Shown piece by piece: positions 14,133 through 41,320 of a DNA stretch of 42,856 nucleotides. Position 1 is the stretch's first letter, and each line of letters starts with the position of its first letter. Origin of the DNA: Candidatus Latescibacter sp. GTDB taxonomy: Bacteria; Latescibacterota; Latescibacteria; Latescibacterales; Latescibacteraceae. Position numbers and translations under genes: made by a program. The stretch is from the NCBI GenBank assembly GCA_030692375.1, contig JAUYCD010000264.1, forward strand, positions 1 through 42,856. Reading direction: 5' to 3'. Under the pieces are notes generated by a model that saw only the letters and a list, made by a program, of their open reading frames with translations, was not told the origin of the DNA and searched no databases.

Positions 14133-14253
14133 AAGTTATAAACTTACCATTTTTTCATTTTAAACGACTTTTGCAATTGGCTCAGTTAATAAAATATATT
14201 ATTATACTGACGACAGTACTCTTACTTTTCTCGCAAACATAGGAGGAGGCGGC

Positions 14254-16515
14254 ATGAAAGGTCTGAAAATCGGGGCGGTGCTCAGTTTCACGATTTCTTT
14301 GGCGATTCTCCTGATCGGGGGATTCTTCGCCAAGGACAAGGTTGCGCCGTATCCCGAAAAAGTCATGAGCGGGGAACGTGTCGTAACGACAGTGGGCGCC
14401 ATTAAAAACGGGCAGAATATTTACCAGAGATACGGCCTGATGGATCATGGCAGCGTATGGGGACACGGCACACTGCGGGGCCCCGATTTTTCCGCAACGA
14501 CGCTTCATAAGATCGGCGTGCACATGCGTGACTTTTACGCGGAAGAAAAACGGGCATCCTATGCTGCGCTCACTCCGGAAGAGCAGTCCTCGATCGATGC
14601 CAAAGTGATCGCGGAGATCAAGAAGAACCGGTACGATCCTTCCACAAAGACGCTGACGGTTACTCCCGCGCAGGCATATGCATTCGATAAGGTTAAAGAG
14701 TACTGGAAAACCGTGTTTTCCGTCGGCGACCAGAGAGATGGATTTCTCCCCGGGACTGTCAAACTCGACCAGGAGAGAGATCAGATAGCCGACTTCTTTT
14801 TTTGGACCGCCTGGGTTGCAGGCACAAACAGGCCGGGAGAGAATTCCACCTATACCAATAACTGGCCCAATGACAGGAGTGTCGGGAATGCTCTTTCCTC
14901 GGATGCTTTTCTGTGGAGCGTGTTGTCGATCATCGCCCTGCTCGTCGTTTTGGGATTGATTATTTATGTCGTGCACAGGTTCCGCTTCTTCTATGGTGAA
15001 CCGAAGGGGGTGAATGTCGGGAAAATATTGATCGGCATGCCGCTCACCAACAGCCAGTTCAAATCCGCAAAATATTTCCTGGTTGTGCTGCTGCTCTTTC
15101 TGCTCCAGATCAATATGGGAGGGCTGTTGGCCCATTACACCGTCCACCCGGGTATGTTCTTTTTCCCGTTCATCGCCAAACTGATACCCTATAGTTGGGC
15201 CAAAACCTGGCATCTCCAACTGGCGGTATTCTGGATCGCCACATCCTGGGTTGGCGCGGCGATTTACCTCGCGCCCCTCATAGGCGGCAGGGAGCCGAAA
15301 AAGCAGGGGCTGCTGGTCGATATCCTGTTCATCGCCATCCTCTTAGTGGCGCTTGGCAGCCTTTTTGGCGAAGTGCTCGGTATCAAGGGTTACCTGGGCA
15401 ATGCCTGGTTCTGGTTAGGGCATCAGGGATGGGAATTTCTGGAACTGGGACGGCTCTGGCAGATACTGTTGTGGGTCGGCCTGATCGCCTGGCTGTTCAT
15501 CGTGTACAGGGCGCTGAAAGACAAGCTGTTCGGACCGAACAGGGATACGAGCGGCCTTGTCTTGTTCTACACCTTGAGCGCAATCATGGTGGTACTGTTT
15601 TACGGGTTCGGTCTCGTGTACGGCAGGGGTACCCATCTGACCATCGCCGATTACTGGAGATGGTTCGTCGTCCACCTCTGGGTGGAAAGCATGTTCGAGT
15701 TTTTCGGTGTTGCGGTGATCGCCCTGTTCCTTGTGGTCATGGGTCTGGTTGACAAAGCATCGGCCATGAAAGTGGCCTACCTCACGGCGATACTGGTATT
15801 CGCGAGCGGCATTATCGGTACCGCACATCATTATTTCTGGTACGGCGGGCCAACCTACTGGCTGGCATTGGGGGGGGTTTTCTCATCGCTGGAGCCGGTT
15901 CCCCTCATCTTGCTTGTCACCCGGACATGGATGGAGTACAAATCAACCAGGGACGCCGGCGAGGACTTTCCCTACAAGTGGCCGCTGTATTTTCTGGTGG
16001 CGTCAAGCTTCTGGAATTTCCTCGGAGCGGGTGTTTTCGGATTCTCGATGAACCTCCCGATCGTCAACTACTATTCACATGCAACCTACCTGACCTCGAA
16101 TCATGCCCATACTGCACTGTTCGGCGTCTACGGGATGCTGTCCATTTCCATGGTTCTTTTCACCTGGCGATCGCTCGTGAAGAACGAATTCTGGAGCGAT
16201 GCAACGCTGAAGCTGTCGTTCTGGGGAATGAACGGCGGATTGTTTCTCATGTTCATGCTCACGCTCCTGCCGATAGGTATTGCACAAACGATATCATCAT
16301 ACACCGATGGTTTCTGGTTGGCCAGGAGCAGCGAGTTCTATGCCCGACCGATGGTTCAGGTGCTCGGGCAACTGCGGGCACTGCCTGATGCAATCATTAT
16401 ATTTTTGGGGGCGCTGCCTCTCTTTGTGTTCCTGATCAAGACCTATCCGCACCTCAAACCTGTCAGCTTCAAGGAAAATGAGGATATGTTCAAAGGGAAG
16501 GACAGTATCCTCTAG
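14254..16515 (+). CDS. norZ: Quinol-dependent nitric oxide reductase (qNOR), single subunit
   Basis: 753 residues, within the normal qNOR range, with AGGAGGAGG before the ATG. It would reduce 2 NO to N2O at the inner membrane. The N-terminal helix is followed by the periplasmic cytochrome-c-like domain without heme motif (GSVWGHGTLRGPDFSA), then 12-13 helices of the heme-copper oxidase fold. Metal ligands are present: H320, H474, H525, H526, H617 and H619, plus E478 and E547 of the active site. All align with G. stearothermophilus qNOR by a constant offset of 34. In the quinol pocket H294, F302 and D712 are kept, but the glutamate expected at 298 is histidine (HYTVHPGMFF). Retained H526 and E547 argue against a NO dismutase. 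No regulator or accessory gene is adjacent. Confidence 0.88.
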   Translation: MKGLKIGAVLSFTISLAILLIGGFFAKDKVAPYPEKVMSGERVVTTVGAIKNGQNIYQRYGLMDHGSVWGHGTLRGPDFSATTLHKIGVHMRDFYAEEKRASYAALTPEEQSSIDAKVIAEIKKNRYDPSTKTLTVTPAQAYAFDKVKEYWKTVFSVGDQRDGFLPGTVKLDQERDQIADFFFWTAWVAGTNRPGENSTYTNNWPNDRSVGNALSSDAFLWSVLSIIALLVVLGLIIYVVHRFRFFYGEPKGVNVGKILIGMPLTNSQFKSAKYFLVVLLLFLLQINMGGLLAHYTVHPGMFFFPFIAKLIPYSWAKTWHLQLAVFWIATSWVGAAIYLAPLIGGREPKKQGLLVDILFIAILLVALGSLFGEVLGIKGYLGNAWFWLGHQGWEFLELGRLWQILLWVGLIAWLFIVYRALKDKLFGPNRDTSGLVLFYTLSAIMVVLFYGFGLVYGRGTHLTIADYWRWFVVHLWVESMFEFFGVAVIALFLVVMGLVDKASAMKVAYLTAILVFASGIIGTAHHYFWYGGPTYWLALGGVFSSLEPVPLILLVTRTWMEYKSTRDAGEDFPYKWPLYFLVASSFWNFLGAGVFGFSMNLPIVNYYSHATYLTSNHAHTALFGVYGMLSISMVLFTWRSLVKNEFWSDATLKLSFWGMNGGLFLMFMLTLLPIGIAQTISSYTDGFWLARSSEFYARPMVQVLGQLRALPDAIIIFLGALPLFVFLIKTYPHLKPVSFKENEDMFKGKDSIL

Positions 16516-16563: not shown

Positions 16564-16594
16564 AAGCCCTTTCACCACCATGAAAGGGCTTTTT
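16564..16594 (+). terminator. Rho-independent terminator after the NO reductase
   Basis: Ten-base-pair stem AGCCCTTTCA (16565-16574) with TGAAAGGGCT (16581-16590), six-base loop, followed by a T-run. It lies about 50 bases after the qNOR stop and ends that transcript. Confidence 0.85.
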
Positions 16595-18122: not shown

Positions 18123-19166
18123 TTATTTTACAGCGAGATCTTCAATATGCTTCAAGATTCTAAAGAACTCGTGTGTATCAAGGAAGAAGTTTGGATAGGC
18201 ACGCCTCAATGATTCTATTGACTCGGTTGCAACTAGGACGGCTTGGTTTTGACTTCCTTTAACAATTTGTTCTTCTGCTTTAAGGTAATCAGCAGTCGCT
18301 ATATCAAAGCGATCTCTGCTATATGCCTGAAGCCTAATTGTTTTTGCTCCTGGGTCAAGGATTAGGAGATAATAAGTGCCTCGGCGTTCATCAGAGTGGA
18401 TCAAGTTTATGGCAGCACCAAATCCCGTCAGTTTACTTCTAACATTCAATTCTTGTGATTTTTTTGCAACATGTCGATATGTCTCAATATTTGACAACCC
18501 TTCATATCCAGGAACTGGATTTTGATTCTCAAGATGGGCAAAAGCAGAGCCGGTGAGAGAAAAGAATGTTAACCATTCATCAGGACCTTCGCTAGATTTG
18601 AGAGCATAGTTCAAAAAGATGCCCATTGTTTCGACAGCTGTTGCCCAAGCATGCTGCTGTCGTGTCCTTATTTGCAACTCAATGAGTAGACCATTGTAAT
18701 CAGTTACGGTCTTGTTGTTATAACGATATACAAGATGAATGCTTCTATAACCCGAAATCTTGGGTGAATCAATGTAGTTACGTTCGCTGATTAATTTGTG
18801 TTGGAAAGGAGTACTCTTATAATTTTCATATAGTTTCTGTACTTGGATTAGATTATCAACTACTGCTCTCAATCCACCAATGTCTTGCATCCTGGCAAGT
18901 TGCATATCAGTAAATCGACGAAGCTTCTCAACAATTGAAGGAATGCGTTTAAGCCTCTGAGCCACAAGAGATTTATTATCGATTGTTTTTAGCTTATGGC
19001 GCAGTGTTGCTTGGAATGTATTGATCGGATAATTATGGATTGCGCGCCAATTACCAAGTACATCTGCAGCCCATAACAGACTTTCATCCGAACTGGTTGT
19101 GTCCCTGAAAATATCTCCAGCCTTATTAACTTCGCCACGGGTATATTTTAATTTAACATTCTTCAT
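18123..19166 (-). CDS. RelA/SpoT-domain protein (small alarmone synthetase-like)
   Basis: 347 residues from the ATG at 19164-19166 with AGAGGA upstream. The nucleotidyl (pyrophospho)transferase core is at about residues 75-190: RMQDIGGLRAVV, then YIDSPKISGYRSIHLVY, then LLIELQIRTRQQHAWATAVE. These match the synthetase motifs that bind ATP and the acceptor nucleotide. There is no HD hydrolase, TGS or ACT domain. The C-terminal 150 residues are unassigned. Stand-alone members make (p)ppGpp or (pp)pApp, or modify tRNA when acting as toxins. It follows the TIR gene in the same direction and lies between attC-like sites, so it looks like an integron cassette. Its A/T content is higher than the surrounding core genes. 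Confidence 0.82.
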   Translation of the reverse strand: MKNVKLKYTRGEVNKAGDIFRDTTSSDESLLWAADVLGNWRAIHNYPINTFQATLRHKLKTIDNKSLVAQRLKRIPSIVEKLRRFTDMQLARMQDIGGLRAVVDNLIQVQKLYENYKSTPFQHKLISERNYIDSPKISGYRSIHLVYRYNNKTVTDYNGLLIELQIRTRQQHAWATAVETMGIFLNYALKSSEGPDEWLTFFSLTGSAFAHLENQNPVPGYEGLSNIETYRHVAKKSQELNVRSKLTGFGAAINLIHSDERRGTYYLLILDPGAKTIRLQAYSRDRFDIATADYLKAEEQIVKGSQNQAVLVATESIESLRRAYPNFFLDTHEFFRILKHIEDLAVK

Positions 19167-19178
19167 AAAATTTCCTCT

Positions 19179-19246
19179 GGCCAACGGGCCGCATCACTTG
19201 CGGGCGTCGTGCAACGACGACCGTCAAGTGCATGCAAATGTTAGGC
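19179..19246 (-). other. attC recombination site between TIR and RelA/SpoT cassettes
   Basis: Read on the minus strand: core box GCCTAAC (19240-19246), stem TGCACTTGACGG and CCGCAAGTG with one extrahelical A, inner stem CGTCGT with ACGACG, then core box GTTGGCC (19179-19185), one mismatch from GTTRRRY. Length 68 bases. The TIR gene's TAA stop lies inside the GCCTAAC box, a common arrangement in cassettes, and the site also carries the spacer before the RelA/SpoT ribosome binding site. Confidence 0.7.
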
Positions 19247-20371
19247 AGTCCAATTGGTATTGACTTCAAGGAGCCCCTCCTTCTGGTACAAACCGTGAAG
19301 CTCGGGCAATTTTGCCGCTAGGGGGTGGATCAATACTGTGCCCACAGTACTCGCGAAGATCTCTCCTTGTTCAATGTGTGGCCCCCTCGCTGTGAGGCGA
19401 AATGTGCGACATAGTGCACGTCCCGTCAATGTGTAGGCATTAGCACAGACATCTTCTACGAACACACCCTCGCGCGCGAGTTCAAGGAGTACATCAAAAA
19501 TCGAGGTGAAAAGAAGCCTCGTGATACGCGGAAAACGGAATCGTGGTCTCAGACAAACCTGTACGAAGTAAATGCGATAGCGCCCTGGAAACTCAAGGTA
19601 CTGGGCTCGGTCGGCAGTAATGCGGCTGTCGAGAAGCCTGCCTGCGAGTGCAAGATTGTAGTCCTCGGGAAAGAGAGGAATGAAGTGCCAGTAACCTATC
19701 ACATTCTTCGGATGAGCGAAGAGCATCCGCCAAGTCTGCGGATGCTCCATGAAGATAGGAGCCCATTGTTCTGGTGTTCCCTCATTAGAGCCTGTCAGGT
19801 CGGTCAGGGTCTCGTAATCGAGCGTGATGAATTCCTCCAGTAGCTTCACGCCATCCCAGCCCCACTCCAGAACTGTCTCGATTCCGCCGACAGATACGAG
19901 GCGCTCAGAGATAGCATCAGCCTGGGAAGAGTCGGGCCATGGGGGCAGAGATACGCTGGCCCACGATTCTACGCCTAAATGCCGTAGGGCCTTGCGCAGA
20001 TGATCATCGCGAGTGACGGGATCGGTTAAGTCCACGCAATTGATCGTCCTAAGGGCGGGACGTAGTTCGTCGGCACGAAGATCGTCAATAATGAGCGGCA
20101 CAAGGCGCCCGCTCCTAGCGTCCGGATCATCATGTACGGCGTATTGAGTTTCCATGGCAACCCACCGGCTTTCCAGGGATGCTCGCGATACCACCAAGAG
20201 AATGTGTCGACTGCCAGTTACTGCCCTCTCGATGGCAGCAACGATGTTTTCTCCAGGGGCGATTGAATCCTCATCAAAGAAGACGTTCAGCCCTTCGTCC
20301 TTCAGCAGCTTGGCTAGCTGTCGCACCCATGGCTTCTCTCTCCGATTATGGCTAAGAAAGATATCGTACAT
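19241..20371 (-). CDS. TIR-domain protein with uncharacterised C-terminal region
   Basis: 376 residues. Residues 1-135 form a TIR domain: MYDIFLSHNRREKPWVRQLA at the start, FFDEDSIAPGENI, then SRASLESRWVAMETQYAV, in which E74 after S-x2-S-x-W-x3 is the catalytic glutamate of NAD-cleaving bacterial TIRs. Residues about 140-376 match no domain I can name with confidence; alternating strands and helices could be a GNAT-like or other sensor fold. Prokaryotic TIR proteins commonly deplete NAD or make cADPR-like signals during phage infection. The gene starts about 30 bases after a GTTAGGC cassette junction and ends within an attC box. GGGAG lies seven bases before the ATG. Confidence 0.85.
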   Translation of the reverse strand: MYDIFLSHNRREKPWVRQLAKLLKDEGLNVFFDEDSIAPGENIVAAIERAVTGSRHILLVVSRASLESRWVAMETQYAVHDDPDARSGRLVPLIIDDLRADELRPALRTINCVDLTDPVTRDDHLRKALRHLGVESWASVSLPPWPDSSQADAISERLVSVGGIETVLEWGWDGVKLLEEFITLDYETLTDLTGSNEGTPEQWAPIFMEHPQTWRMLFAHPKNVIGYWHFIPLFPEDYNLALAGRLLDSRITADRAQYLEFPGRYRIYFVQVCLRPRFRFPRITRLLFTSIFDVLLELAREGVFVEDVCANAYTLTGRALCRTFRLTARGPHIEQGEIFASTVGTVLIHPLAAKLPELHGLYQKEGLLEVNTNWTA

Positions 20372-22102: not shown

Positions 22103-22972
22103 TTAAAAATATATAACCAGTATCGCCACGATTCCATAAGCCAGAATGTCGAGCTGCAGGGGGATATCGCTCAGGAGTATTTCTTCCGGTTGTCCGCCCT
22201 CGTTTTTGCTGTGCACCAGGTAAAGGTAACGAAAGATACCGTAGAGGACGAACGGAACAGTCAGCACCATGTGGCTGCCGAATTTATGCACTGTCTCTTC
22301 AGACAGGGTGAAGATCATGTATGCCACCAGGGTCGCCGAGGTTACCACCCCGATCATCTGATCGAGCAAATACGGAGTGTATTCCTTGAGAATAACCCGG
22401 TGAACATCTGCCTGCTTATCGAGGAGAACGATTTCATGCCTTCGTTTGGAGAGGGCTAGAAAAAGAGCCAGCAGCATGGTGCAGATAAGTATCCAGTTGG
22501 ATACCGCAACCTGGATAGCCAGAGCCCCGGCGATAACCCTCAGCAGAAACCCGAAGCTGATTACGAATACATCCAGGATAACCTTATGTTTCAGGAAAAA
22601 AGTATAGGCAACCTGGAGCAGAACATATCCGAGAACAGCGGCCCCGAAACCGGTGTTGAACAGGAAGGAAACAACGATCGCGACTACGCCGAGAAAGGAA
22701 CAAAGGAGCCAGCCGGTATGAAGGCTGATCAGTCCTGCGGCGAACGGACGGAATTTTTTGACCGGATGGGCGCGGTCTTTCTCCACATCGACGATATCAT
22801 TGAAAATGTAAACCGCACCGGTTACCAGGCAGAAAAGAACAAACGCCTCGACCGCTTTGGCAATAGAGGACGAATCCCGCGCGTGACCGGAAAAAATAAG
22901 CGCCGCAAAGATAAGCGTATTTTTGGTCCACTGCCGGATTCTCAGGGTTTGCAGTATATCGCCGACGGTCAT
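22103..22972 (-). CDS. UbiA-family phosphoribosyltransferase (decaprenyl-phosphate phosphoribosyltransferase-like)
   Basis: 289 residues with eight or nine transmembrane helices. The first Asp-rich motif is NDIVDVEKDRAHPVKKFRP, which closely follows the NDxxDxxxDxxHPxKxxRP form of mycobacterial DPPR synthase (Rv3806c); the second conserved region is LKHKVILDVFVISFGFLLR. That enzyme transfers phosphoribose from PRPP to a polyprenyl phosphate in the membrane, a first step to arabinose-containing envelope polymers. Other UbiA functions are possible, but the HPxK phrase favours this one. Starts 34 bases after glutamate dehydrogenase in the same direction. Confidence 0.82.
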   Translation of the reverse strand: MTVGDILQTLRIRQWTKNTLIFAALIFSGHARDSSSIAKAVEAFVLFCLVTGAVYIFNDIVDVEKDRAHPVKKFRPFAAGLISLHTGWLLCSFLGVVAIVVSFLFNTGFGAAVLGYVLLQVAYTFFLKHKVILDVFVISFGFLLRVIAGALAIQVAVSNWILICTMLLALFLALSKRRHEIVLLDKQADVHRVILKEYTPYLLDQMIGVVTSATLVAYMIFTLSEETVHKFGSHMVLTVPFVLYGIFRYLYLVHSKNEGGQPEEILLSDIPLQLDILAYGIVAILVIYF

Positions 22973-30339: not shown

Positions 30340-30685
30340 AGTGCAAAGGCAAGAAATTTGACAGGATTTACAAGATTTACAGGATTAATTATATTCTGAA
30401 ACCTTTGAAATACTTTCTCTCGCAAAGTCCGCAAAGTTCGCAAAGAAAGAAAAGTAAATCAGGTGATTCGCTGGTTATAGACAAAGATACTTTACGATAA
30501 AGAGGGCTTTTTTTTATTTATATAAATGTGGACACATTAATATAATAAGGTAATAAGGCGACTCTTTGCAACAGAATCAAAGGCGTATTATACAGGAAGA
30601 AAAATGAAACTCAGTATCTTATGGGGATCGAGATAATAATTATTCAACGTAACAGTGCACGCGAGTAACGTAGCCAGGGGGCGTC
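30340..30685. other. Intergenic region, repeats then A/T-rich sequence
   Basis: 30355-30460 holds the ACAGGATTTACAAGATTTAC and CGCAAAGTTCGCAAAGAAAG repeats. 30461-30685 is A/T-rich with no gene. An ACGTAACAGTGCACGCGAG stretch just before the next gene is palindromic in part, meaning unknown. Confidence 0.4.
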
Positions 30686-31279
30686 ATGGCATATCAAGCA
30701 CAAAAGCAGTCGAAACCCGACCATACCGCCTTGGATGTACTGCAGGAGTTCAAGCGGATGTTCGTAAACAGCCGTTCGTTGAGTGTCTATTTGCCCGAGA
30801 AATGCAATGGGGAATCGACGTTCGCGCCCGGCGAGTTCTACCGAGCCACCACTCCGTACTCCTACGTTCAACTCAAGGCCCCTCTCACTGAGAAGGTGCG
30901 GCAGGAGCATAACAGCATCGGGGCATGGATTAACGAAAACTTCTTGATTCGCCTCTGGGCAATTCTTGAGAGCCGGGGATTCACTAAGCCGATTCGAACC
31001 AACGTTCGAGGCACAGCCGAGGTCCAACTTCTCAAGGACCTTCGCCAGCACTTCGCGCATGGAACGGGCCTTTACAACGACAGAAAGTTGGAGCATCGCA
31101 ATCTGCGGCGCGACCTGCTAAAATCATTCCCTGTACCAGGAGATATCGACGGACTCCCTACTAACATCGACTACGTAATGGTTCCGATGTACGAGCGATG
31201 TCTCGAATACGTGCAGGACGTTCTGGCAGCTGAGGCATCGGAGGGTGACGGATCGCCTGCAATCATGAAGGCAGGATAG
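30686..31279 (+). CDS. HEPN-like protein of unknown function
   Basis: 197 residues, GGGGG a few bases before the ATG. The protein is mainly helical. DLRQHFAHGTG at residues 118-128 contains R120-x4-H125, the RNase motif of HEPN domains, placed after a helix (INENFLIRLWAILESRG) as in that fold. I cannot place it in a named family. HEPN proteins are often ribonuclease toxins or defence effectors. It stands alone, 104 bases before an HNH nuclease gene of much lower GC content, so the two may have arrived separately. A minus-strand frame over the same bases is a shadow. Confidence 0.6.
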   Translation: MAYQAQKQSKPDHTALDVLQEFKRMFVNSRSLSVYLPEKCNGESTFAPGEFYRATTPYSYVQLKAPLTEKVRQEHNSIGAWINENFLIRLWAILESRGFTKPIRTNVRGTAEVQLLKDLRQHFAHGTGLYNDRKLEHRNLRRDLLKSFPVPGDIDGLPTNIDYVMVPMYERCLEYVQDVLAAEASEGDGSPAIMKAG

Positions 31280-31383
31280 TAGCACCGAACAAGTGCTTTC
31301 AACCTATGCGTTCACGGTTGTCGCATACAGCAAGCGCACGACACGAGGAGTTTAGCTCAGTACATTAAATTAAGGAAAACATC

Positions 31384-32313
31384 ATGGAAAAAGCCCTATT
31401 TATAAACGGAGTTTATGAGGATGTCCTTGATGAAATTGTAAAATCCCAAGAAGCTAACCCTGGCAGGGTTTTTTACCTACAACCTTATTCAGAATCTTCG
31501 ATAAAACAACTTAGAAACGGATCAACCGAGCCGTATTTCCCATTACCTCTTTACATTTCAACAACCCGTCAACTCAATCAAATATGCTACTCAGCAGATA
31601 TCATTGGATGGGAAGACAAAAATGAACTATCGGCGAAAAGACTGGCATTCTTAAATGAACATATAAAAATATTTCAACCAAAAGAAGTCGAGATATATTT
31701 TGAAGTGAAGGAAAAAAAGTGCGTCAATTTAATCTCAATTAGAAACCTAACAAAATTTAGTAACCAACTGTCAACATCAAATCTAATAAAGGAGAGCGAT
31801 GGAGAACCACTTAAACCGCGGACTCGCGCAGGCAGTTGGAGTTACGTTTATGCTTTACCATTATTATCAATTGATAAAACTGTTGTTAAAAAAAGACTAG
31901 ACGAAGAACTGGAAAAATCTCTATCCATATCCTTAAAGGATGATGATGAAATAATAAAAAAACGTTTAGAAACTGCTCCTAAAATTCCAGAGAAAGTCCA
32001 AACCATATCATATGATTTTCGAAGAAACCCAGATGTAATTGCGGCGGTATTAAAAAGAGCTCACGGCAAATGTGAATTATGTAAATCTGATGCACCTTTT
32101 TTTAAGGCTTCAGATGGCACACCATATTTGGAAGTTCACCATTGGATCACATTATCTGAAGGAGGAGAGGACATTATTGAAAATGCTGGTGCACTATGCC
32201 CAAATTGTCATAAAAATGCGCATTTTGGGGCAAAACGAGACTTTATAAAATCTAACAAGGTGCTTGTATCCAATGTAAAAAGTCCCTCAACAGATGAACC
32301 CTGTTCGTACTAA
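31384..32313 (+). CDS. HNH endonuclease with unassigned N-terminal domain
   Basis: 309 residues, A/T-rich unlike the backbone genes. The C-terminal 90 residues are an HNH nuclease: zinc pair CELC, then YLEVHHWITLSEGGEDIIEN with the catalytic histidine pair, and ALCPNCHKNAHFG with the second CxxC. This form resembles McrA-like restriction enzymes. The N-terminal 150 residues (for example PLPLYISTTRQLNQICYSAD then IIGWEDK) may be a recognition domain; the fold is not identifiable by eye, and a PUA/EVE-like reader of modified bases is only a guess. AAGGAAAACATC precedes the ATG. Confidence 0.8.
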   Translation: MEKALFINGVYEDVLDEIVKSQEANPGRVFYLQPYSESSIKQLRNGSTEPYFPLPLYISTTRQLNQICYSADIIGWEDKNELSAKRLAFLNEHIKIFQPKEVEIYFEVKEKKCVNLISIRNLTKFSNQLSTSNLIKESDGEPLKPRTRAGSWSYVYALPLLSIDKTVVKKRLDEELEKSLSISLKDDDEIIKKRLETAPKIPEKVQTISYDFRRNPDVIAAVLKRAHGKCELCKSDAPFFKASDGTPYLEVHHWITLSEGGEDIIENAGALCPNCHKNAHFGAKRDFIKSNKVLVSNVKSPSTDEPCSY

Positions 32314-37369: not shown

Positions 37370-38515
37370 ATGAAACTCTACGAGCATGAAGCCGCCGATA
37401 TCTTCGCTCATCTCGGCATTCCCGTTCCGGACCGGATGACCGCCGTCTCGCCGGAGGAGGCCCGATCCGCCGCAGAAAAGATCGGCTGCCAGGTGGTGGT
37501 CAAAGCGCAGGTGCTTGCCGGGGGCCGCGGCCTGGCTGGAGGGGTGAAAACCGCCTCCACACCGGAAGAAGCGCAGGCCGCTGCGGAATCCATCCTCGGC
37601 TCCCGCATCCGTGGACTGACAGTCGAAAAGGTCCTGATCAGCCAAAAGATCGAGATCGCAAAGGAGCTTTACCTGGGCATCACGGTGGACGGAGACAAAG
37701 GACAGCCGATCGTGGTGACGAGCAGCGAGGGCGGCGTGAGCATCGAAGAAATCGCAAAGACATCCCCCTCGAAAATCGCCTCCCGGAATGTGGACATCAA
37801 CCGGGGGCTGCTCGCGTTCGAGGCGCGTAAACTCCTTGGCGGCGCAGGTTTCCCCGCCCGTCAGATACCTGCCGCCGCCGATGTGCTGGTGAAGCTCTAC
37901 CAGGTGTTCCGGCGGTACAATGCCCTGATTGCGGAGATCAATCCTCTGGCGGTCCGCCCGGATGGTTCGGTCACAGCGGTGGACACCAAGCTGGAAATAG
38001 ACGATTCCGCACTGTACCGCATGGACAACCGCCTTCCCGGCAACATCGAGCGCACCGGAAACCCGCTCGAGAAAAAAGGCCGCGAGATCGGAGTCACCTA
38101 TGTGGAGCTGGACGGCGATATCGGCCTCATTTCATCCGGCGCCGGGCTGGGCATGGCCACCATGGACATCATCGGGCGGAAACTGCGCCCCGCCAACTTC
38201 CTGGAAACCGGCGGCGGCATCACCGAAGACCTGCTCTACCGCATCATGGAGCTGATGATGATGAAACCGGGCCTCCGCGCTATCTTTATCAATCTCTACG
38301 GCGGCATCAACCCCATCCATGAGGGGGCCAAAGGCATCGTCCGCTACATCCGTGAGCACAATCTCTCCATCCCCATCATGGCCAAAGCCCTGGGGAACCG
38401 TCAGGAGGAAACCTGGGAAATCCTGCGCTCCGGCGGCGTCCACGTTGTAACTGAGACGGCGACTGAGAAGGCGGTGGAGAAGCTGTTCGAACTTGTAGGG
38501 AGCGTAAAAGAATAG
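37370..38515 (+). CDS. sucC: Succinyl-CoA ligase beta subunit-like (ADP/GDP-forming)
   Basis: 381 residues. ATP-grasp domain in the first 235 residues (VVVKAQVLAGGRGLAGGVK, EINPLAVRPDGSVTAVDTKL), then the CoA-ligase beta domain (VTYVELDGDIGLISSGAGLG, NFLETGGGITEDLLYRIM). The phosphate loop near the end reads LYGGINPIHEGAKGIV where most SucC have a GGI-RCD phrase, so the substrate may not be succinate. In the expected reaction an acyl-CoA, ADP and phosphate give the acid, CoA and ATP. It directly follows the MNT/HEPN pair by 56 bases. Its partner sucD is displaced by 1.9 kb. Confidence 0.85.
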   Translation: MKLYEHEAADIFAHLGIPVPDRMTAVSPEEARSAAEKIGCQVVVKAQVLAGGRGLAGGVKTASTPEEAQAAAESILGSRIRGLTVEKVLISQKIEIAKELYLGITVDGDKGQPIVVTSSEGGVSIEEIAKTSPSKIASRNVDINRGLLAFEARKLLGGAGFPARQIPAAADVLVKLYQVFRRYNALIAEINPLAVRPDGSVTAVDTKLEIDDSALYRMDNRLPGNIERTGNPLEKKGREIGVTYVELDGDIGLISSGAGLGMATMDIIGRKLRPANFLETGGGITEDLLYRIMELMMMKPGLRAIFINLYGGINPIHEGAKGIVRYIREHNLSIPIMAKALGNRQEETWEILRSGGVHVVTETATEKAVEKLFELVGSVKE

Positions 38516-38658
38516 TCCAAAGCCCAAAGGAAAAGATCAGTCGCAAAGGGGCAAAGGCACAGAGGAAAAGAAAGAAGTAAAGAAGCTGAAGAAACACTTT
38601 GCCGCGCCTTCACTTTGATACTATGTTACATTATTGATAGAAATGATAGGGTCTTAGT

Positions 38659-39753
38659 ATGAGCGTATTAAACCATATAACGTTAGAAAATTTCAAATCA
38701 ATCAAAAAACTTGACCTTGATTTGAAACCGTTAAATGTCTTTATCGGAGCTAATGGAGCGGGCAAATCAAATTTCGTCGGGGTGTTCAATTTCCTTAACG
38801 AACTAGTCGAAGGCAATCTTCAAACATATACGGGTACGTCCGGAGGAGCTAACAGCATCCTTTATTTCGGCATCAAAAGGTCGGACTCCCTCTCTTTTGA
38901 TCTCTCCCTGGATGATAACACGAAAGGGTATCGCTGTGTTTTGAAACCCACAGTACATGATTCTTTTATCATAGACGAAGAGTTATTCTGGATTATTGAT
39001 GAAGGCGGGCATAAAGAACATTCAATGTTTTTAGGTAATAACAATACTGAGTCTGCCATTCAGAAAACGCTCACAGATACCCAGTACGTGCCTTTCAAAG
39101 AAATCTGCCCTCTCCTTAAAAGCTGGAAAATCTATCACTTCCACGACACCACCAACAGTGCCGCAATTAAACAAACCAGTGATATTGAAAACAACCGCAT
39201 TCTTCTGCCAGACGGCGGCAATCTTGCGGCATTTCTGTACATGCTCTCGAAAAAATATCCGGTACATTTCGATAACATACAGGATGCCATTCGCATGGTT
39301 GCGCCTTTTTTTGACCGCTTTGTCCTTGAACCCTCTCAATTGAATGAAGACAAAATTCGGCTTGAGTGGAAACATAAAGGAACAAGCGATTATTTCAATG
39401 CTTCCTCACTCTCCGACGGCACTCTACGGTTCATGTGTCTTGCCACACTTCTTTTACAGCCAGCGCTGCCATCAATAATCCTGCTCGATGAACCCGAACT
39501 CGGCCTTCATCCTTATGCTGTCGCCGTTCTTGCAGGGCTCTTGCGGTCGGCTTCGAAGAATTCGCAGGTTATCATCGCCACGCAGTCGGTTACTCTGGTT
39601 AATCAATTCGAACCTGAAGATATTGTGGTGGTCGAGCGCGACAAAGAACAAAGCATATTCCGCCGTCTCGATAAATCGAATATTACCGAATGGCTTGAGG
39701 ATTATGGCCTCGGCGACCTTTGGGAGAAAAATATTCTGGGAGGACGCCCCTGA
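38659..39753 (+). CDS. AAA-family ATPase (OLD/RecF-like, SMC-type ABC fold)
   Basis: 364 residues. N-terminal ITLENFKSIKKLDLDLKPLN is the RecF/OLD opening; Walker A is GANGAGKSN at 30-38, signature LSDGT at 251-255, Walker B LLDEPELGLHP at 275-285, then a switch histidine-free ATQS at about 308. There is no nuclease or TOPRIM domain in this protein; that role probably belongs to the DUF4276 gene starting four bases later. It resembles the ATPase halves of PARIS and OLD-type phage defence systems. GC content is lower than the flanking suc genes. Confidence 0.85.
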   Translation: MSVLNHITLENFKSIKKLDLDLKPLNVFIGANGAGKSNFVGVFNFLNELVEGNLQTYTGTSGGANSILYFGIKRSDSLSFDLSLDDNTKGYRCVLKPTVHDSFIIDEELFWIIDEGGHKEHSMFLGNNNTESAIQKTLTDTQYVPFKEICPLLKSWKIYHFHDTTNSAAIKQTSDIENNRILLPDGGNLAAFLYMLSKKYPVHFDNIQDAIRMVAPFFDRFVLEPSQLNEDKIRLEWKHKGTSDYFNASSLSDGTLRFMCLATLLLQPALPSIILLDEPELGLHPYAVAVLAGLLRSASKNSQVIIATQSVTLVNQFEPEDIVVVERDKEQSIFRRLDKSNITEWLEDYGLGDLWEKNILGGRP

Positions 39754-39756
39754 ATC

Positions 39757-40410
39757 ATGAAAAAGGTGCTGATTCTCGTGGAAGGACAAACAGAAGAAGC
39801 TTTTGTTAAACGGGTTCTCGCTATTCATCTTGCGCCTTATGATATCGTGGTTAATCCTATAATATTGACAACAAAAATAGTCGTGAATGGTCCGGATTTT
39901 AAAGGTGGATCTTTATCATACAGAAAAGTAAAAAAAGAAGCTCAAAGATTGCTTGGAGACACAAGCACTCATCTGGTGACAACAATGCTTGATTTCTATG
40001 GTCTCAAAAACGATTTCCCTATGCGGGACAATTCTACCGGTAATCCTCTTGAAAAAGTTTCCAGAGTCGAGGCTGCGTTTAATCAAGATATAGATAATCC
40101 CCGCTTCTACAGTTATTTCTCACTTCATGAGTATGAGGGATTGCTGTTTTCTTCTCCATCTGATATTGCACGGATATTTAACGAACCCGTTAAAGAAAGT
40201 ATCCTCCGCCGAATAAGAAATTCTTTCCCGACCCCGGAAGACATTAATGATAATCCGGAAACCGTTCCTTCAAAGAGGATCTGCATGGAGTTTCCCCAAT
40301 ATGAAAAGGTTTTCCATGGCTCTGTAATCGCAGGCCGTATCGGGCTTGAAACCATGCGAAGAGAATGCCACCATTTTCATACATGGTTGAATCGAATTGA
40401 ACAATTATAG
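39757..40410 (+). CDS. DUF4276-family protein (TOPRIM-like partner of the ATPase)
   Basis: 217 residues. The start MKKVLILVEGQTEEAFVKRV has the TOPRIM-like glutamate E9 of RloB/DUF4276 proteins; further conserved parts are TTMLDFYGLKNDFP and HEYEGLLFSSP. Genes of this family are recurrently found directly after an AAA ATPase, as here. The combination suggests a two-protein nuclease or RNase system triggered by phage, comparable with AriAB of PARIS; this is inferred from gene arrangement. Confidence 0.82.
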   Translation: MKKVLILVEGQTEEAFVKRVLAIHLAPYDIVVNPIILTTKIVVNGPDFKGGSLSYRKVKKEAQRLLGDTSTHLVTTMLDFYGLKNDFPMRDNSTGNPLEKVSRVEAAFNQDIDNPRFYSYFSLHEYEGLLFSSPSDIARIFNEPVKESILRRIRNSFPTPEDINDNPETVPSKRICMEFPQYEKVFHGSVIAGRIGLETMRRECHHFHTWLNRIEQL

Positions 40411-40441
40411 ATAAAAACATAGATCGGAACAACATACCACC

Positions 40442-41320
40442 ATGTCTATATTGCTAAATCGAAAGACAAAGGTTCTCGTTCAGGGAATCACCGGGAAAAT
40501 CGGAAGCGTCCAGACCCGCTGGATGAAAGAATACGGCACTAATATCGTCTGCGGAGTAACTCCGGGCAAGGGCGGAGGCGAAATCGAAGGCGTTCCGGTT
40601 TTCAACTCGGTGGAGGAAGCAGTGCGTGGTACAGGCGCCGAGGCTTCGGTGTTCTTTGTACCGGCGGCGGGCGTGCTCGATGCATTCTTCGAAAATGCCG
40701 ATGCGGGTATCGGCCTGATTGTAGTTGTTCCGGAACATGTCCCCGTGCACGATGTGATGAAAATGCGCGCCTACGCCCAGGAGAACGGTGTGTTTGCCCT
40801 CGGACCCACCACCCCGGGCATTCTCACCCCCGGTGAGGCCAAGATGGGCATCATGCCCGGTTCCCTGTTCACTCCGGGCAGGTTCGGCATCATCTCACGG
40901 AGCGGAACCCTGGCCTATGAAATGGCCGGGATTCTCAGCGCCGCCGGGTACGGGCAAAGCACCGTGGTCGGCATGGGCGCGGACCCGGTCGTTCTCACCG
41001 CCATGACCGACATCCTGCAGCTTTTCGAGCGCGATCCCGAAACCGATGCTGTGGTAATCGTCGGCGAGGTGGGCGGAGTCCAGGAAGAAATGGCGGCGGA
41101 ATTCATTACAGAATGGATGACCAAACCTGTCGCCGCTTACATTGCCGGACGGTTCGCCCCGGAAGGCAAGCGCATGGGTCATGCCGGCGCCATCGTGCGC
41201 GGCTCTGCGGGTACATACGCCGGGAAATGCGCTGCGCTCGCAGAGGTGGGGGTGCGGGTGCTGGAAACGCCGATTGATGTGGTGGAGTGGGCAAAAACCC
41301 TGACACCTGGAGAGAAATGA
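40442..41320 (+). CDS. sucD: Succinyl-CoA ligase alpha subunit-like
   Basis: 292 residues. CoA-binding Rossmann domain (VQGITGKIGSVQTRWMKEYG), then GIMPGSLFTPGRFGIISRSG and the phosphorylated histidine in GHAGAIVRG. Two phrases depart from the usual: GPTTPGILTPGEAKMG (usually GPNCPG or GPNSPG) and GADPVVLTAMTDILQLFE (usually GGDP..G..F.D). Both line the CoA and acid pocket, in keeping with the odd loop in SucC. A strong ribosome site is lacking. It follows the ATPase/DUF4276 pair by 31 bases. Confidence 0.87.
   Translation: MSILLNRKTKVLVQGITGKIGSVQTRWMKEYGTNIVCGVTPGKGGGEIEGVPVFNSVEEAVRGTGAEASVFFVPAAGVLDAFFENADAGIGLIVVVPEHVPVHDVMKMRAYAQENGVFALGPTTPGILTPGEAKMGIMPGSLFTPGRFGIISRSGTLAYEMAGILSAAGYGQSTVVGMGADPVVLTAMTDILQLFERDPETDAVVIVGEVGGVQEEMAAEFITEWMTKPVAAYIAGRFAPEGKRMGHAGAIVRGSAGTYAGKCAALAEVGVRVLETPIDVVEWAKTLTPGEK

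Follow-up and report, generated by a model that had tools for sequence, protein, structure and literature searches.

The qNOR gene and its surroundings

The window analysed here is a stretch of 42,856 nucleotides from a Candidatus Latescibacter sp. (contig JAUYCD010000264.1) that carries an intact qNOR gene, whose features are listed in Table 1. The gene stands alone in the window. Its upstream neighbours are an RraA-like protein and a UVR-motif protein, and the downstream neighbour is a PHP match that falls below the Pfam cut-off. The hairpin and T run 3' of the gene suggest a single-gene transcript, and no Fnr-type boxes were detected upstream by a simple pattern search. The GC3 of the gene is 0.69, inside the range of nine other window genes (0.63-0.76). 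As regards foreign DNA or contamination, this value argues against a very recent insert and is compatible with an older transfer.

Two other parts of the window drew attention. At 18123-20371 on the minus strand, a RelA/SpoT-like gene (18123-19184) adjoins a TIR-domain-like gene (19241-20371), both named by eye, as possible defence genes. At 37370-41320 on the plus strand, two succinyl-CoA-type ligase subunit genes are separated by an insert (38659-40410) with an AAA ATPase-like gene and a small gene that by eye resemble an OLD-type defence pair.

The 753-residue protein is one chain in which an N-terminal domain of the kind without heme c is fused to a NorB/COX1 core, and it contains no CXXCH motif and no Cys. 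Identity as a cNOR was considered and rejected, as the N domain is fused and CXXCH occurs in window ORFs of more than 90 aa only at 30646-32311, about 14 kb away. A search of NCBIfam with the query protein assigned no family. The closest solved relatives overall are the qNORs of Geobacillus, Achromobacter and Neisseria, the best of them being Geobacillus qNOR 3AYF (phmmer E 1.7e-208; 45.5% identity by MAFFT). An AlphaFold2 model built on 40 sequences (mean pLDDT 84.9) has the qNOR fold when compared with 3ayf (VIA Z 44.9, rmsd 1.9, 725 aligned residues) and is weak at the quinol-site stretch, where the mean pLDDT drops to 56 (residues 291-300) and 62 (residues 301-310). The heme, FeB and catalytic residues are present as H320, H474, E478, H525, H526, E547, H617 and H619, which include the equivalents of Glu490 and Glu559.

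Table 1. Features of the qNOR locus, with positions in the window (Gs, Geobacillus stearothermophilus; Ax, Achromobacter xylosoxidans)
Feature	Position	Strand	Basis
Likely ribosome-binding site, AGGAGGAGG	14241..14249	+	sequence read directly
qNOR gene, intact, 753 aa	14254..16515	+	translation without internal stop
N-terminal cytochrome-c-like domain, residues 35-206	14356..14871	+	PF22085, 189.9 bits
H241 codon, end of second membrane helix, cytoplasmic side inferred by homology; His in 55/55 clade rows	14974..14976	+	
NorB/COX1 core, residues 273-685	15070..16308	+	PF00115, 192.3 bits
H294 codon, quinol (Qi) ligand, equals Gs H328 and Ax H305; kept	15133..15135	+	alignment
H298 codon, replaces Gs Glu332 / Ax Glu309	15145..15147	+	alignment
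R557 codon, replaces proton-channel Glu (Ax Glu569, Gs Glu591)	15922..15924	+	alignment
E561 codon, four residues after R557; Glu in 55/55 clade rows	15934..15936	+	alignment
Q706 codon, position of outer-site Ax Trp718	16369..16371	+	alignment
R708 codon, equals Ax Arg720 and Gs Arg742; kept	16375..16377	+	alignment
D712 codon, quinol ligand, equals Ax Asp724 and Gs Asp746; kept	16387..16389	+	alignment
Hairpin GCCCTTTCA-CCACCA-TGAAAGGGC followed by TTTTT, likely intrinsic terminator	16566..16594	+	sequence read directly rather than by terminator scan

A histidine beside the quinol site

An earlier note on this DNA had described the protein as a qNOR with His at the position of Glu332. This description was borne out. 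The segment AHYTVHPGMFF aligns without gaps to AHYYTEPDSFF, which places H298 at Gs E332 and Ax E309, so that His stands where the glutamate beside the quinol site is expected. As 46 relatives from other genomes read His (38) or Ser (8) here, H298 is neither a sequencing error nor a product of chance. The Qi ligands His305, Arg720 and Asp724 have their counterparts in H294, R708 and D712, and the note was right that H294, F302 and D712 are kept, F302 being Gs F336 and Ax F313. Its fixed offset of 34 to the Geobacillus numbering breaks down from residue 304 to about 430, where the offset is 35 (H320 = Gs H355, W393 = Gs W428) because the query lacks the Gly that follows Gs Phe336-Phe337.

The note had also taken the glutamate to be a quinol contact. 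The 2.2 Å structure of AxqNOR places Glu309 instead in the second shell, hydrogen-bonded to the quinol ligand His305; its authors call the quinol density weak, and they propose protonation of His305/Asp724 (PMC10256718). A later paper describes that density as weak and sporadic before the addition of quinol, assigns Trp718 to an outer site and His305/Asp724 to an inner (Qi) site, and gives activity losses of about 85% for each of W718A and R720A (PMC13087809). Glu332/Glu309 has been termed a signature residue of qNOR (PMC10286720). Within the text passages of the open-licence literature, figures and supplements aside, we found no description of a His form at this position, and a report of enzyme activity for any member of the clade described below was likewise not found in the open-licence literature.

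A conserved non-acid clade in several phyla

The 46 relatives were found by scanning genome contigs with the query protein. The sample was then widened to 64 genomes of the host's phylum and to the phyla of five relative-bearing genomes, those genomes included. Enzymes at least 58% identical to the query were present in 1/64 genomes of the host's phylum and in 4/297, 2/294, 2/297, 12/247 and 2/188 genomes of the samples for Desulfoferrobacter, Pirellulales, Acidobacteriota, 'Spirochaetes RBG_13_51_14' and Polyangiaceae, respectively. The clade is spread over several phyla and is patchy; a cultured bacterium with such an enzyme is Desulfoferrobacter suflitae (L033).

With seven plasmid-borne enzymes, 40 stretches chosen by position and two reference sequences added, the alignment came to 203 rows; 11 low-scoring cNOR-like loci, 13 identical duplicates and L001 were left out of it. 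Counts were made on 199 of these rows after four short ones had been removed. Rows were grouped by identity to the query (core clade above 56%, basal 50-56%, others below), and NO dismutase (NOD) rows were defined by Asn at 526.

In the 55 core rows, whose identity to the query ranges from 57 to 100%, site 298 is occupied by His (46) or Ser (9), with no Glu or Asp among them. The other 112 qNORs have Glu in 96 rows, Asp in 12, Gln in two and Ser in two. Basal rows (n = 3) read His once and Asn twice, and the 29 NOD-type rows read Gly (12), Arg (6), a gap (6), Asn (3), Val (1) and Asp (1). H294, E478, E482, H474, H525, H526, E547 and N588 are kept in 55/55 clade rows, and R708 and D712 in 54 each, the remaining row being incomplete.

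Phylogeny with the site mapped, the check that the earlier note had proposed, recovered the non-acid qNOR clade with SH-aLRT values of 99-100 and placed the NODs in a clade of their own. Both trees were quick searches with SH-aLRT as their sole measure of support. Tree 1, built after removal of the site columns, grouped its 47 clade rows together (SH-aLRT 100), and tree 2, from which the columns around 557 and 706 and six long-branched rows were also removed, recovered the clade at 99. On tree 2 the clade label required one change, compared with a shuffled mean of 32.5; this label excluded the Ser rows L064 and L065 by name because tree 1 had put L064 elsewhere. Loss of the acid at site 298 took four changes on tree 2, by inspection in the clade and in L064, L175 and L214.

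Judged from these alignments and trees, the query clade is a real, conserved variant of qNOR. Since other qNORs also vary at the site, we treat Glu332 as a subgroup mark, and on the sequences compared the His298 state marks a variant qNOR clade and, by present evidence, no new enzyme class.

The Desulfoferrobacter phylum also includes basal relatives whose Glu332 site is Asn: L054 (genome G240), L055 (G151) and L056 (G184). In L054 and L056 Ser replaces the quinol ligand His328, with R708/D712 and the listed metal ligands kept; the Asn600 position is Glu in L054 and L055, and L056 has an internal TGA.

Neutral drift would be another account of the histidine. On this view any of Glu, Asp, Gln, Ser, Asn or His would be tolerated at a second-shell site, and His would have been fixed by accident with no effect on donor or kinetics. 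Gln and Ser do occur outside the clade (4/112), and Ser stands in for His in nine core rows and Asn in basal rows, but the complete lack of Glu and Asp in the 55 core rows, against an acid in 108 of the 112 other qNORs, counts against drift. The change is also accompanied, throughout the clade, by replacements in the Trp718 and Glu569 columns and by an adjoining deletion. We regard drift as a credible but unlikely explanation.

Distinction from NO dismutases

A change at Glu332 serves as one mark of NODs (PMC10286720, PMC6250046). The sites described as changed in these enzymes are His328, Glu332 and Phe336 (PMC10286720), and NOD has been described as having lost its quinol site (PMC3413370). 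The query might on this ground be taken for an NO dismutase-like enzyme that needs no external electrons. NODs are indeed also without Glu332 (PMC10286720), with one Asp and no Glu at that site in 29 NOD rows, and Arg at position 75 is common to the clade (55/55) and the NODs (29/29). Against this, residue 526 of the query is His where NODs have Asn (29/29, by definition of these rows), residue 547 is Glu where they have Gln (29/29), and D712 is kept where they have Gly (23) or Val (6); NODs also form a separate clade on tree 2, on which they have 10 rows. Neither Asn for His560 with Gln for Glu581 nor loss of the quinol ligands His328 and Asp746 is seen in the query, which keeps both of the latter as H294 and D712.

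Because it retains its catalytic ligands and the quinol ligands His294, Arg708 and Asp712, the query is not an NO dismutase, as the earlier note had concluded; H526, E547 and D712 contradict that identity, and the chance that it holds appears very slight. NOD-type enzymes as such were encountered in the planctomycete, acidobacterial and myxobacterial samples (L170-L173, L177, L178, L179-L192, L201 and L204 among others).

Changes that accompany the histidine

The proton channel described for AxqNOR runs through Glu569, Ser523, Glu494 and Asn600, and Glu569 mutants of that enzyme failed to express (PMC6713497). In the Glu569 column all 55 clade rows have Arg, compared with an acidic residue in 109 of the 112 other qNORs, and the clade has gained a Glu, E561, one turn further on. 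In the outer-site column of Trp718, Trp is found in 0/55 clade rows and in 105/112 others; Geobacillus has Leu in this column, and the 28PQ reference row reads Ala and was scored as non-Trp. The residue after Phe303 is deleted throughout the clade (55/55) and in none of the 112 others, 101 of which have Gly there. Further clade columns read Val for Thr498 (43/55) and Met for Glu572 (37/55) in the channel, Phe at Val495 (54/55), and His241 and Tyr247 after the second membrane helix (55/55). The equivalents of Glu490, Glu494 and Asn600 are kept in every clade row, as are the metal-ligand histidines that were tested. On this alignment the catalytic site is intact, as is the inner part of the proton path described in the literature, and the differences lie in the entry half of that path and around the quinol.

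Strict linkage of these changes is countered by several rows. L135, L151 and L174 combine Gln, His or Ser in the Glu569 column with Trp and with an acid (Glu or Asp) at the quinol site, and in the basal L054 and L055 Asn at 298 goes together with Glu at 557. The columns in which the clade has gained an acid were searched for one that might compensate near His298; they include E561, which is channel-near by homology, and none could be assigned to the quinol site from the alignment.

The variant is more interesting than a single residue, because the electron and proton paths differ at several sites at once throughout the clade. It could even be a functionally distinct class of qNOR with a joint rebuilding of the two ends of its proton circuit, release through the change from Glu to His/Ser and uptake through Arg in place of Glu569, an added Glu and a new motif in the TM2 loop. 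In the window's host, where neither of the known menaquinone routes was found, the enzyme would then run on scavenged or unknown quinones. This reading is speculative and we think it rather doubtful; if true, NO reduction would be coupled to quinol in another way.

Gene neighbourhoods

At the 46 relative loci, the recurring neighbours, with families labelled from one representative each, were a hemerythrin-domain protein (11 loci), an Rrf2-type regulator (9), a NIR_SIR/4Fe-4S protein (7), a protein without a Pfam family (6), a Crp-type regulator (4) and Hcp (4). The hemerythrin, Rrf2 and Hcp neighbours suggest an NO-stress context, and we count them in favour of an NO reductase.

Electron donor and host quinones

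The earlier note had suggested that the electron donor may differ. Taken further, the clade or its host might use another quinol, a scavenged naphthoquinone or a protein, and not menaquinol of its own making. For the host the question is a real one, because neither tested menaquinone route was found in its genome. MqnA/MqnD (PF02621), of the futalosine route to menaquinone, is absent from this genome and from all 17 examined genomes of families f1-f6 in the host's phylum, compared with its presence in 46 of the 47 examined genomes of f7-f10, a sharp split inside one phylum. The only MenD-model match in the host is weak (59.3 bits against a cut-off of 244.2) and sits among apparent branched-chain amino-acid (ilv/leu) genes, named by eye rather than by family scan. 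A MenA-like gene falls below every cut-off, and no menaquinone genes were recognised by eye around it; gene surroundings were judged in this way from two of four stretches, L231 and L232. The host has four UbiA-family matches, three of which were typed, with none over the MenA or UbiA cut-off. A UbiA-family protein in the window itself, at 22103-22972 on the minus strand, matches decaprenyl-phosphate phosphoribosyltransferase NF008977 (270.6 bits, cut-off 234).

By these searches the host may not make menaquinone, barring gaps in the 97% complete assembly or an unrecognised route. Quinone auxotrophs with quinone uptake are known, L. plantarum being one (PMC10746273).

For the clade as a whole, a different donor is not demonstrated. 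His and acid forms coexist in genomes G069, G073 and G861, and G1214 has a His-type and a Gln-type qNOR, all four being draft assemblies that could be mixed. Since both forms in G069, G073 and G861 presumably draw on one quinone pool, there is no need to postulate a new quinol type. The kept Qi ligands also speak against a change of donor, as does a protein with no heme c motif and no Cys whose relatives have a CXXCH ORF (at least 90 aa) within the flanks examined at only 3 of the 46 loci; a cytochrome c donor was rejected on the same grounds. Overall, we judge a change of donor improbable.

Proposed mechanism

The best explanation as a whole, to which we give a probability of roughly 0.6, is that the query is a true NO reductase of the qNOR family, in a distinct clade, with a His-His relay and altered proton entry. 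The membrane-bound enzyme would catalyse 2 NO + 2 e- + 2 H+ -> N2O + H2O, with NO removal or respiration in anaerobes as its likely role. His294 and Asp712 would oxidise quinol in the inner (Qi) pocket next to heme b, with His298 as the partner of His294 in place of Glu, and the protons of the quinol would leave towards the periplasm through a neutral His-His relay and not a His-carboxylate pair. Electrons would bypass any outer Trp site, as they would in Geobacillus qNOR, which is described as being without that Trp (PMC13087809). The protons for NO reduction would enter by a cytoplasmic path whose entry half is changed (R557/E561, H241) and whose inner half is the same (E482, N588, E478).

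The His-His relay is the best mechanism that we can offer, and the Ax structure is its one structural basis because the AlphaFold2 model is weak at residues 291-310. Ser in 9/55 rows shows that the site can do without a titratable group, and this weakens the case for a strict relay; in the Ser members the partner need not carry the proton itself, and water could. Gln or Ser at an otherwise canonical site in 4/112 other qNORs suggests that Glu itself may matter little. Counting against the explanation as a whole, a host without a menaquinone pathway by the tests run is a poor fit with a quinol donor.

Significance and comparison with known systems

The proton path and the quinol site of qNOR have been argued from few structures, and the Geobacillus and Achromobacter enzymes are both of the acid type. 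Here a natural clade carries Arg in 55/55 rows at Glu569, a site beyond the reach of the Ax mutants, and its quinol-pocket and channel replacements together make it a natural test of electron and proton handling in qNORs. Functional members of the clade would show which parts of the channel and of the quinol site are needed. The clade also shows that a Glu332 change can occur with an intact reductase site, though it is used as a NOD mark.

Acid-type qNORs on annotated plasmids resemble the clade in their neighbours, with ytfE beside L219 and norR and a hemerythrin protein beside L220. Putative NODs resemble the query in being without a Glu332-type acid in 28/29 rows and in their Arg at 75; they differ in having Asn for H526 and Gln for E547, in the missing D712 and in forming a separate clade.

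In other work the fourth residue of the QH site of E. coli cytochrome bo3 is given as Gln101, although a literature search for Gln101 in this site returned no match. That site, named as Arg71-Asp75-His98-Glu101 in PMC10256718, shares the Arg-Asp-His quinol cluster with the query, but it belongs to another enzyme and its fourth residue is unlike that of the query.

Close parallels also exist with two solved qNORs. The enzyme of Achromobacter (Alcaligenes) xylosoxidans (8BGW, 6QQ5) shares the fold, the catalytic ligands and the Qi ligands His305/Arg720/Asp724, whereas its Glu309, Trp718, Glu569, Glu572 and Thr498 correspond to His, Gln, Arg, Met and Val in the query. The enzyme of Geobacillus stearothermophilus (3AYF/3AYG) shares 45.5% identity, the fold, the catalytic ligands and the His/Arg/Asp quinol ligands, and the outer Trp is missing there too (Leu740); it differs in having Glu332, Glu591 and the Gly after Phe336-Phe337, where the query has His, Arg557 and a deletion.
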